From a virus: a stretch of DNA of 45,715 bases. Positions within the stretch are counted from its first letter, which is position 1, and every line of letters starts with the position of its first letter. The notes beneath the pieces were generated by a model. The model was given only the letters and a program-made list of their open reading frames with translations, had not been told where the DNA came from and ran no database searches. The DNA is taken from positions 1-45,715 of IMG/VR virus record IMGVR_UViG_3300009481_002868. One strand, given 5' to 3'. Positions 62 to 19,366 of the stretch are shown here, piece by piece. The translations under genes were made by a program, and so were the position numbers.

Positions 62-239
62 TAAAAGACGCCCCACTTCTGTTGCCGGGCAGGGGCCTCC
101 CCGAGTAACTACGCTGCTAGAGCATAATCCTCAGATGCAAAGTTATCGTTTGCAATTATAGTTTTCTTGCGGTTAAGGTCGCTTGCGCACCTGTCTCTCG
201 GCTTTCCTATTATCTACCAGTCGATCCTATTTCGGCCCC
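62..239 (-). ncRNA. ssrA: tmRNA coding piece (permuted, two-piece ssrA)
   Basis: This is the mRNA-like half of a trans-translation RNA that rescues stalled ribosomes. The 5' end GGGGCCG at 239-233 pairs with CGGCTCC of the acceptor piece (446-452), giving a 7-bp acceptor stem with G3.U70, the alanine identity pair. A tag frame at 153-109 follows. Downstream of the tag is a GC-rich stretch containing GGCAACAGAAG, which I recall as typical of the 3' part of alphaproteobacterial coding pieces; the 3' end near 62 is an estimate. In permuted ssrA genes the acceptor piece is transcribed first, then an intervening sequence, then the coding piece, and that order is seen here. No promoter of its own is visible; transcription probably comes from 1003-1031. 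Confidence 0.93.
109..153 (-). other. tmRNA proteolysis-tag reading frame
   Basis: The resume codon GCA at 153-151 opens a frame encoding ANDNFASEDYALAA followed by TAG at 111-109. The ANDN start and the ALAA end match bacterial SsrA tags that are recognised by ClpXP-type proteases and SspB-like adaptors. The ANDN start is typical of alphaproteobacteria, unlike the marine picocyanobacterial tags I recall. The preceding A-rich stretch is the usual context of a resume codon. Confidence 0.93.
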
Positions 240-240
240 A

Positions 241-429
241 TCATAAAGATACAGAATTTAAAGGTTTACATACATAATTGACAGTATCCCAATCACCATC
301 TGCGGGTATTTCAGAATATTCTACAAGCATTGTGTCACATTCTGTTTTTGTTTTAAACCATTGTATGTCTTGATCAACACAAACTGATCCTGTGCAAACG
401 GTTAGTAATATATGCCAAATAATTTCCAT
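241..429 (-). CDS. Small secreted two-cysteine protein encoded inside the tmRNA intervening sequence
   Basis: This 62-residue protein has a hydrophobic N-terminus (residues 3-17) followed by WF..KTEC and a C-terminal Cys. It resembles the products of 14763-14948 and 41397-41636, which share a hydrophobic N-terminus, an aromatic-F-x-EC motif and a later Cys. AAGGAT lies just upstream of the ATG, so it looks genuinely translated. The gene lies wholly between the CCA end of the tmRNA acceptor piece (442) and G1 of the coding piece (239). The TGA stop (243-241) is one base short of G1. Function is unknown; an exported or periplasmic location is inferred from the hydrophobic start. Confidence 0.75.
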   Translation of the reverse strand: MEIIWHILLTVCTGSVCVDQDIQWFKTKTECDTMLVEYSEIPADGDWDTVNYVCKPLNSVSL

Positions 430-441
430 TTTATATCCTTA

Positions 442-508
442 TGGTGGAGCCGTCGGGTACTGCCCCCGAGTCCTGTGCAGTTTTCGGTCTGCGTCATAAA
501 GACGCTGT
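442..508 (-). ncRNA. ssrA: tmRNA acceptor piece
   Basis: This is the tRNA-like 3' half of the permuted tmRNA. Read on the minus strand it has a hairpin GCGTC-tttat-GACGC, then AGACCGAAAACTGCACAGGA, then a T-arm-like stem-loop TCGGG-GGCAGTA-CCCGA (469-453), then acceptor strand CGGCTCC, discriminator A and an encoded CCA (444-442). All seven acceptor-stem positions pair with the coding piece. The 7-base T-loop lacks the canonical TTCGA, which I recall is normal for two-piece tmRNAs. It starts immediately after the stop codon of the gene at 511-720, so it is probably cut from that transcript. Confidence 0.92.
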
Positions 509-510
509 AA

Positions 511-720
511 TCAATTACTGTATTCACTGTAATTACTTTGTAGAGAAGCTAATTTATCTTCAGCAGTTGCTAATTTAGATAATTCATGATTTACTGCTTC
601 TACAAGATCAGGATGTTCTCCAATTCCTGCAGGATTTTCTATGTAAACTTGAATATTTGCTTTTGCTTTTGAAATTTCAGCTTCATATTGTAGTCTTAAG
701 GCTTGAAATATCATTTCCAT
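511..720 (-). CDS. Small coiled-coil phage protein, conserved hypothetical
   Basis: This 69-residue protein is rich in Ala, Glu and Lys and has an IGEHPDL motif at about residues 33-39. I recall closely similar small proteins (EAKANI...NPxGIGEHPD...) in T4-like cyanophages and pelagiphages, always without known function. The sequence predicts two helices around the GIGEHP turn. It lies directly upstream of the tmRNA acceptor piece and downstream of 730-978, in the transcript from 1003-1031. The stop codon is within a few bases of the RNA, so processing of the RNA may trim this message. Confidence 0.8.
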   Translation of the reverse strand: MEMIFQALRLQYEAEISKAKANIQVYIENPAGIGEHPDLVEAVNHELSKLATAEDKLASLQSNYSEYSN

Positions 721-14196: not shown

Positions 14197-14763
14197 ATGG
14201 AGATAACTTTACCTGCGTTTATATTTATGATTAATATAATTGGATCTACTTTTTCTAATGACATATCTTCAAAAGAACTTTATTGCCTAGCCGCTAATTC
14301 TTATTTTGAATCAAGAGGAGAATCTTTTGATGGTAAGATTGCAGTTGCTCAGGTGGTAATGAACAGAGTAAAATCTAAACACTATCCTAATACAATATGT
14401 GAAGTTGTTCAACAAGGACCTATTAGAGAGAGTTGGAAAACTAGAAAAATTACAGGGTTACCAGAAGAAGAGAGGATATATTACCCAATTAAAAATAGAT
14501 GTCAATTTAGTTGGTATTGTGATGGCGCATCTGATATAATTCCTATAAATAGAAAAAGTGGTGAAGTAAATACAATAACTACTGCTATGTGGAGAGATTG
14601 TGTGTTTGCTGCAGTTTTAGTATCTACTAATAAAGTTAAATCTTTAGTTGGACCGTCTACTCATTACTATGCTTACAAAAAAGTTACTCCTAATTGGCCT
14701 TCTTTGTCTGAGTATACTGTTGTAGATAACCATAGGTTTATGTATAAGAAAGGAAATTATTAA
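14197..14763 (+). CDS. SleB-type cell-wall hydrolase (Hydrolase_2)
   Basis: A 188-residue protein with an N-terminal hydrophobic signal (residues 5-20) then the Hydrolase_2 pattern: LYCLAANSYFESRGES with the catalytic Glu, GKIAVAQVVMNRV, YPNTICEVVQQ, and CQFSWYCDG. These are lytic transglycosylase-like or amidase-like enzymes acting on peptidoglycan. The ATG at 14197 follows the previous stop by one base; an upstream GTG at 14170 is less likely. Export would place it in the periplasm, so it may assist lysis or entry. Confidence 0.85.
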   Translation: MEITLPAFIFMINIIGSTFSNDISSKELYCLAANSYFESRGESFDGKIAVAQVVMNRVKSKHYPNTICEVVQQGPIRESWKTRKITGLPEEERIYYPIKNRCQFSWYCDGASDIIPINRKSGEVNTITTAMWRDCVFAAVLVSTNKVKSLVGPSTHYYAYKKVTPNWPSLSEYTVVDNHRFMYKKGNY

Positions 14764-14948
14764 TGACTGAAATACTATTAATATTATGGTTTAGTGGATT
14801 CAATATGACTATTAGTAACGACATGTATAAGTTTTCTTCATTACAAGAATGTAATGAGAAAAAAATAATTATTGCAAAAGATTATGGAGCAAACAGCGCT
14901 ACTTGCTTTAAAGGAGACATCCTTGAAGATAGGTTAGAAAACACATGA
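14763..14948 (+). CDS. Small secreted two-cysteine protein
   Basis: A 61-residue protein with a hydrophobic start (residues 4-14), then YKFSSLQEC and a second Cys in ATCFKG. The same layout occurs in the tmRNA-nested gene (241-429) and at 41397-41636, so three members of one small family seem to be scattered through the window. Start and stop overlap both neighbours (TAATG, ATGA). Function unknown; export is inferred. Confidence 0.65.
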   Translation: MTEILLILWFSGFNMTISNDMYKFSSLQECNEKKIIIAKDYGANSATCFKGDILEDRLENT

Positions 14949-18435: not shown

Positions 18436-18921
18436 ATGGGATTGAAGTTAGCAGGAGTTATGATGATTATTATGGGGGTTGTAGGAGGCATTTTTTACTG
18501 GTATTACACAGATACACAGGAAAAAATGGCTATCATGCATGAGAATAACGCAAAATTAGAAACAGCAATGCAAACTCAAAAACAAGCTATTGACCAGTAT
18601 CAAAAAGATATAAAATTAGTAACAGCTTCAAAACTAGAAGTAGAAGAACAATTTGCAAAATCTAGAGAGTCAGTACAAGAGTTAAAAAATAAATTCAATA
18701 AAGTTAGTAAATTACTAGGAGCAAGAGATTTAGGTAAAATGGGTGCCGCCAAACCTAGGTCTATTCAACGTATTGTTAATAAAGGCAGTAAAGACGTATT
18801 AAGATGTTTTGAAATTGCTAGTGGTAAACCGCTGACGGAGAAGGAAAAAGATGCGATCAAACCAAGTCAAATCAATAAACAGTGTCCTAATTTGGCCAAC
18901 CCTAATCATATTAAGCCTTAG
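18436..18921 (+). CDS. i-spanin-like inner-membrane protein
   Basis: A 161-residue type II membrane protein: one N-terminal segment (about residues 5-24) followed by a long coiled coil (27-95) and a C-terminal part with two Cys. This is the i-spanin (Rz) layout. It follows lysozyme and overlaps by 71 bases the lipoprotein gene at 18851, the usual nested Rz/Rz1 arrangement. It would span the periplasm and fuse membranes at lysis. Confidence 0.75.
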   Translation: MGLKLAGVMMIIMGVVGGIFYWYYTDTQEKMAIMHENNAKLETAMQTQKQAIDQYQKDIKLVTASKLEVEEQFAKSRESVQELKNKFNKVSKLLGARDLGKMGAAKPRSIQRIVNKGSKDVLRCFEIASGKPLTEKEKDAIKPSQINKQCPNLANPNHIKP

Positions 18922-19366
18922 CTTATCGGCTTGTGGAACTCCGGTTAAAAAAATAGAAGTATTAAGTACTCCATTAGAAAGAGTACCTCTTAATCTTCCT
19001 AAAGTAGATGAACTTAATTTAGATACGGTAGATTGGATACTTGTTACTCCAGAAAATGCTGAAAAAGTGTGGAAAGATTTAGAGAAAAAGAAATTTGATA
19101 TTGTGTTATTCGGACTCACAGATCGTGGATATGAGGACCTTAGTGTAAATATAGCAAAAATTAAACAAATGGTTATACAACAAAAATCAGTAATTGCAGC
19201 GTATAAGAAATATTACGAAAGTCAGACTGAAGAAATAGAGAAACAACAAAAAGCAGTTGAAGAAAAGAAAAAAGAAGCTGCACTTGAAAATGAAAAAGCT
19301 GAAGAAGAAAATAAAAAAGGTTTTCTTAATAAATTAAACTCAAATGTGAAAGGTATATTCAAATAG
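18851..19366 (+). CDS. o-spanin-like outer-membrane lipoprotein
   Basis: A 171-residue protein with a signal segment and lipobox SLSACG (Cys at about 28), Pro/Leu-rich mature start and a C-terminal coiled coil rich in Lys and Glu (about 110-155). It overlaps the i-spanin gene in another frame. The start at 18851 lies inside the i-spanin gene. It is larger than lambda Rz1, so it might instead be another envelope lipoprotein. Confidence 0.68.
   Translation: MRSNQVKSINSVLIWPTLIILSLSLSACGTPVKKIEVLSTPLERVPLNLPKVDELNLDTVDWILVTPENAEKVWKDLEKKKFDIVLFGLTDRGYEDLSVNIAKIKQMVIQQKSVIAAYKKYYESQTEEIEKQQKAVEEKKKEAALENEKAEEENKKGFLNKLNSNVKGIFK

Follow-up and report, generated by a model that had tools for sequence, protein, structure and literature searches.

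A virus record of 45.7 kb from IMG/VR (IMGVR_UViG_3300009481_002868; the whole stretch of 45,715 nucleotides (nt) is called the window here) encodes a permuted transfer-messenger RNA (tmRNA) with a small protein-coding gene in its intervening sequence (IVS). The record also carries phage-associated metabolism genes. Our reading, to which we give a probability of about 0.7, is that the precursor of the phage tmRNA doubles as a messenger, with the IVS as a cargo slot between the two strands of a phage-specific helix. If so, the discarded spacer of a housekeeping RNA serves as a gene slot across marine phages.

The window tmRNA and its nested gene

The tmRNA is of the permuted alpha type and lies on the minus strand. 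Rfam covariance scans matched RF04321 at positions 109-503 (111.9 bits, E 4e-21) and RF01849 at 66-551 (105.8 bits). Both scores exceed the curated cut-offs of 47 and 50 bits, respectively, and bear out a preliminary description, made from the letters alone, which had proposed a complete permuted tmRNA and an Infernal search as the check. ARAGORN, run on the window, did not report the tmRNA. As expected for a permuted gene, the 3' tRNA-like piece is encoded before the 5' piece. The acceptor strands are fully paired (7/7, G3.U70 included), CCA is encoded, and the tag frame ANDNFASEDYALAA has a small apolar end followed by TAG; each of these elements, noted earlier, can be read in the sequence. 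The IVS is 202 nt long and coding. In this it departs from the usual short non-coding IVS, which is not a strict criterion for this class of RNA. The Rfam scan gave no match to a group I intron in the window tmRNA, and the gene sits between the CCA and G1. The features are as follows.

66-551, minus strand: modelled extent of the entire precursor of the permuted alpha-type tmRNA (RF01849, RF04321)
442-452, minus strand: acceptor 3' strand CGGCUCC (452-446), discriminator A and encoded CCA (444-442); end of the first-transcribed tRNA-like piece (sequence; 7/7 pairs)
240-441, minus strand: intervening sequence, 202 nt (sequence; 202-207 nt in relatives with the same gene)
431-441, minus strand: 5' strand of the closing helix (UAAGGAUAUA...), which holds the Shine-Dalgarno sequence AAGGA at 440-436 (fold, covariation)
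241-429, minus strand: nested gene, 62 codons, ATG at 429, TGA at 243-241 (homologues, selection, AlphaFold)
244-254, minus strand: 3' strand of the closing helix (...UAUCUUUA), which also codes for the last residues VSL (fold, covariation)
240-243, minus strand: conserved UGAU directly before G1, containing the stop codon (TGAT ends most viral IVSs, see below)
233-239, minus strand: G1 and acceptor 5' strand GGGGCCG, with the expected RNase P cut before 239 (sequence, Rfam)
109-153, minus strand: tag reading frame ANDNFASEDYALAA and stop (sequence)

Relatives that bear the gene have seven versions of the acceptor stem. All are fully paired, and the six that differ from the window version carry compensated changes. 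The tag ends in AA in 139 of 142 viral tmRNAs. By comparison, the tmRNA around the nested gene is intact. We found nothing in favour of a decayed relic in which the small gene alone matters; the compensated acceptor changes, the conserved tag ends and Rfam scores far above cut-off make such a relic extremely improbable, and we rejected it.

The nested open reading frame (ORF) starts 12 nt past the CCA, with AAGGA ahead of the start, and its TGA ends one base short of G1. The stop would survive the expected cut. This is the geometry given in the preliminary description. By tblastn, 83 relatives were confirmed on viral contigs and 80 of them retained, and an iterated profile search recovered 101 homologous ORFs among the fetched viral loci. 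Named phages contribute just gene 85 of Melnitz and its counterparts in three sister isolates, all marine Methylophilales phages (52% identity). Invariant positions in the family alignment are I4, W5 and H6, four cysteines, D44, G45 and W47. AlphaFold models the window protein as a beta-beta-alpha-beta fold (predicted local distance difference test score 90.3). Searches of PHROG and Pfam with the window protein gave no match, and a PDB sequence search gave nothing worth naming. For the 12 distinct aligned sequences with the gene in the IVS of an intact tmRNA, the median ratio of nonsynonymous to synonymous substitution rates (dN/dS) was 0.20 (63 pairs, range 0.046-0.57). In these copies 51 of the 62 third codon positions vary, compared with 31 first and 25 second positions (p = 9e-7). 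The window gene has homologues, a conserved frame and the signature of purifying selection, and is almost certainly a real nested gene.

A real gene had been proposed before, on the grounds of two relatives elsewhere in the window. The gene stands, through its 101 homologous ORFs and low dN/dS; the window relatives do not. Searches across the window with phmmer, blastp, an iterated profile (best E 0.096) and a pattern found no significant paralogue, and the likeliest candidate, ORF 14763-14948, had an hhalign probability of only 7%. We also rejected homology to a similar-looking protein in a 266-nt IVS (hhalign probability 0.8%). Related phages with an IVS of the same length and no open frame had been named as evidence against the gene. 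None was found, since relatives with the same gene in an IVS of 202-207 nt keep the frame open; three IVSs of 194-199 nt from another class, described below, are decayed. Misassembly was rejected because the arrangement recurs in many contigs from different metagenomes.

The same gene occurs both inside and outside tmRNAs. An intact permuted tmRNA carries the gene in its IVS in the window and at loci L003-L005, L008-L015, L023, L068, L078/L079 and L263. Free-standing copies lie 93-111 nt (often 95 nt) upstream of the CCA in Melnitz, L027, L050, L140 and others, 500-800 nt upstream elsewhere, downstream of the tmRNA in L018, or in loci with no detected tmRNA. A codon tree built without the C-terminal columns requires about 7 changes of location, at least 3 of them forced by well-supported branches. 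A single IVS clade or origin was rejected (approximately unbiased test, p = 0.0004), with the qualification that the gene is short and that recombination may contribute. From this tree, entry into or exit from the IVS is judged to have occurred repeatedly. At L037 the IVS is 28 nt and the gene lies upstream, yet the protein still ends in VSL as written by the IVS helix. This looks like an escape of the gene from the IVS.

Genes in the IVSs of other viral tmRNAs

Our finder required full acceptor and T-stem pairing and a D-arm motif. It returned 166 distinct permuted tmRNAs from viruses, in which the IVS measures 18-352 nt, and all 20 loci submitted to Rfam scored above cut-off. A single frame filled at least 75% of the IVS in 89% of cases, both at 120-160 nt and above 160 nt. 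Shuffled-core controls gave 6% and 2.8%, respectively. For IVSs of 40-90 nt, enrichment was only slight (34% versus 23% shuffled). There were 76 IVSs of at least 95 nt, and in 68 of these a frame covered at least 65% of the length. The 68 frames fall into 29 sequence families, 18 with a single member so far.

Families unrelated to the window gene gave dN/dS values of 0.25 (MFKWL), 0.18 (MNWDWHW), 0.17 (MWIY) and 0.23 (MYY). One pair each gave 0.14 for KEKCR (the one usable pair) and 0.10 for MTKITK. An excess of third-position changes was found in all constrained IVS families tested except MFKWL. Several cargo families have free-standing homologues in other phages. Examples are the DUF6356 protein of L167, the L104 protein, with homologues located after the tmRNA in L218 and L241, and the L239 protein, which matches HTVC010P. 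In the class-D IVSs of L220, L222 and L247 (194-199 nt), the frame of the KEKCRIYY family is open over its C-terminal part alone. By these comparisons the IVS is a general cargo slot with exchangeable genes.

The preliminary description knew of no phage tmRNA with a gene in its IVS. Our literature search, whose coverage stopped at subscription papers, likewise found no report of protein genes in a tmRNA IVS. The window is not an isolated case, as 29 unrelated families share the slot. These are candidate small-protein families that annotation could miss where the tmRNA gene is masked.

The closing helix

The closing helix forms between the bases right after the CCA and a stretch separated from G1 by four bases. 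Across 139 tmRNAs, 96.9% of cells were standard pairs over 11 positions, with two-sided changes at 11/11 pairs (237 cells). Control alignments slid by 1-3 nt were 29-62% paired. One pool of tmRNAs had been chosen by a pattern containing TTTATGATGGGG. Hence, we repeated the test on 48 distinct end pairs from other pools. In these tmRNAs, not selected on the IVS, 96.2% of cells were paired and 11/11 pairs covaried (94 two-sided cells). TGAT was found at the end of 149 of 160 viral IVSs. Together, the acceptor stem, the ACCA/UGAU step and the 11-bp helix amount to nearly 22 continuous bp. Nearly all of the long viral IVSs are closed in this way. The fold of the window IVS had a z-score of -3.9.

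Host tmRNAs were compared. One alphaproteobacterial order gave 18 genomes with a match, in which the IVS is 3-30 nt and the phage helix is absent. In a class-wide alphaproteobacterial sample, all but 2 of the roughly 150 matches listed span at most 277 nt. The two exceptions have a long IVS (115 and 165 nt), which contains no frame of at least 30 amino acids, and do not have the same arrangement. We can say with near certainty that the closing helix is real and phage-specific. The same literature search found no earlier report of it.

Letters of the helix are also letters of the gene. In the window fold, UAAGGAUAUA pairs with the strand ending in UAUCUUUA, and both the Shine-Dalgarno sequence and the start region are buried. 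At helix position 4, a G of the ribosome site forms a G.U pair with a conserved U. The 3' strand encodes the last residues of the window protein and runs directly into the stop. All 68 IVS frames end within or past the region of this strand. Their ends lie at -1 in 21 cases (UGA), at -12 in 14 (UAG inside the helix) and beyond G1 in 27 (+13 or further); the remaining 6 are elsewhere between -17 and -7. Unrelated proteins that end at -1 converge on a C-terminal VSL or MSL (L152, L181 and the window family), because the helix strand GUGUCUUUAUGA writes it. A single RNA strand thus has a structural role, provides the ribosome site or the stop codon, and encodes the C-terminus of the protein.

The helix might be mainly a processing signal. 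A near-continuous duplex of about 22 bp is of a size that RNase III could cut, and genes would settle in the loop because the loop tolerates inserts. Consistent with this, most gene-free IVSs of 28-32 nt have the helix, as do the unannotated tmRNAs of Ruegeria phage vB_RpoS-V10 (MH015255) and Rhodobacter RcXuper. In the latter two the IVS measures 111 and 109 nt, respectively, has AAAGCU.../...AGCUUUUGAU as its closing strands and contains no frame of at least 30 amino acids. Pairing also stops near 11 bp over IVSs of at least 40 nt. However, a processing signal leaves unexplained the link between ribosome sites and coding. IVSs starting with TAAGG were coding in 27 of 33 cases, versus 41 of 133 for the others (p = 2e-7). 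We regard a mainly processing role as rather unlikely; it is compatible with translation of the precursor and does not exclude it.

Among public phage records, unannotated permuted tmRNAs with IVSs of 88-109 nt were noted in Mesorhizobium phage Cp1R7A-A1 (L401), Erythrobacter phage vB_EliS-L02 (L402) and the RcXuper phage already mentioned (L404). In vB_RpoS-V10 (L403), a GOLLD RNA scoring 151.4 bits precedes the tmRNA by about 170 nt.

L403, 717-1150: GOLLD RNA RF02032
L403, 1321-1712: unannotated permuted tmRNA

Proposed expression from the precursor

During transcription the ribosome site and start would appear about 190 nt ahead of the strand with which they pair. Hence, translation could begin on the nascent primary transcript. 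Ribosomes that travel as far as the stop beside the 3' strand of the helix would keep the helix and the acceptor stem open. Once ribosomes are gone the helix would close, which would shut off further initiation and draw the CCA end to the G1 end. The IVS would then be excised by RNase P and 3' nucleases, and the two-piece tmRNA would mature. If the conserved helix closes after translation, a long translated insert can coexist with a functional tmRNA. Since 27 of the 68 frames have no stop before G1, the precursor would be needed for normal termination. We therefore lean, with some reserve, towards translation mainly from the precursor.

The order of events could be reversed, with RNase P and 3' nucleases freeing the IVS first. 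The messenger would then be an RNA of 202 nt that ends one base after the stop. The stop precedes G1 in 41 of the 68 frames, that of the window included, and the free IVS would be a closed stem-loop that could resist exonucleases. Conversely, the Shine-Dalgarno sequence and start remain paired in the fold of the excised RNA, and the 27 frames that cross G1, including those of the constrained families B and C, would be stopless after excision. Hence, an excised messenger is unlikely and is probably not the general route; it could still apply where the stop lies at or before -1.

The frames ending at +13 or beyond invite comparison with E. coli arfA. Its mRNA becomes nonstop through RNase III cleavage or through premature termination, and its expression is regulated by trans-translation (PMC8012679). 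By analogy, maturation would make the IVS message nonstop or nearly so, and the released tmRNA would tag its own cargo protein for destruction. Full protein would appear only when tmRNA maturation or trans-translation is limiting. As the frames that cross G1 might be, arfA is a small gene with an mRNA that can become nonstop through processing at a hairpin. Unlike them, it is not part of a tmRNA. The window gene keeps its stop, the TGA at -1 surviving the cut, and the position of stops shows no clear preference. We consider such feedback distinctly unlikely as the explanation. More tentatively than we propose translation of the precursor, we can envisage bifunctional transcripts. In these, tmRNA maturation and translation of the nested gene would be mutually exclusive via the shared helix, and messages that cross G1 would become nonstop targets of the released tmRNA. 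The idea is doubtful; if true, the capacity for ribosome rescue and the expression of small phage proteins are linked by an inherent feedback.

Several points weigh against a precursor that doubles as messenger. We infer all of transcription, processing and translation for the IVS frames. Where the Shine-Dalgarno sequence and start are buried in the helix, output could be very low. A stop ahead of G1 is not needed, as 27 of the 68 frames continue beyond it. The third-position excess of class B (MFKWL), taken alone, is not significant (p = 0.11). Since the class-D IVSs of L220, L222 and L247 hold decayed frames, cargo can be lost and, by the same comparison, is judged dispensable. Fold searches with the window protein gave no match at E < 0.001; the best PDB hit (8g9s_A, E 0.38) and viral models (0.018) were not used as evidence.

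With translation from the precursor as the working model, several matters become testable: the reason for which phages encode a tmRNA of their own, the processing of permuted tmRNAs with a long translated loop, and whether ribosome rescue is coupled to phage gene expression.

The window tmRNA resembles the alphaproteobacterial two-piece tmRNA (RF01849/RF04321) in piece order, acceptor stem, tag and D-arm motifs. The phage IVSs differ in their range of 18-352 nt, in being mostly closed by a covarying helix and in often bearing genes. Phage two-piece tmRNAs are known, and 53 candidates are counted in the paper on Methylophilales phage Melnitz EXVC044M (MZ577097; PMC9004378). Melnitz also encodes a two-piece tmRNA, and its gene 85 is homologous to the window gene. 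Gene 85 lies upstream of the tmRNA, unlike the arrangement in the window, and the 142-nt IVS of Melnitz holds a different frame, MFKWLSKTRL..., which crosses G1. This frame is unannotated (L002 3085-3261, minus strand), and in the tmRNA region the record MZ577097 lacks locus tags 87 and 88. The accessible text of the paper does not mention IVS genes. It does report a glutamine riboswitch with the Melnitz ssrA (PMC9004378). In another phage of the MFKWL class, a glutamine riboswitch (RF01739) directly follows the tmRNA (L182 778-828).

A 2025 tmRNA database of 97,179 sequences describes a tRNA-Ala in one IVS, called unique, and a repetitive element in the longest IVS (PMC11915505). The former, in GCA-2688965 sp002688965.2, is like the window in that the IVS of its permuted tmRNA contains a gene; unlike the window gene, it is an RNA gene rather than protein-coding, and is a single case. 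The same source describes homing-endonuclease genes in group I introns of the tmRNA T loop (PMC11915505). Such intron-form tmRNAs also have a protein gene within an RNA segment that is removed from the precursor. The phage case differs, being the IVS of a permuted gene, with no intron and with many unrelated genes. Taken together, protein genes that are nested in the IVS, can be exchanged and have a closing helix of their own seem to be new within the known tmRNA family.

Two minor observations remain. ARAGORN called a tRNA-Pyl (CTA) at 18919-19014 of the window (minus strand); it overlaps coding ORFs, has no Rfam tRNA match and is probably a false call. A contig of 29,883 bases titled Rickettsiales bacterium isolate SAT45 (PALK01000009.1, L332) is probably a phage contig within a bacterial metagenome-assembled genome, because its IVS and length are identical to those of virus record L122.
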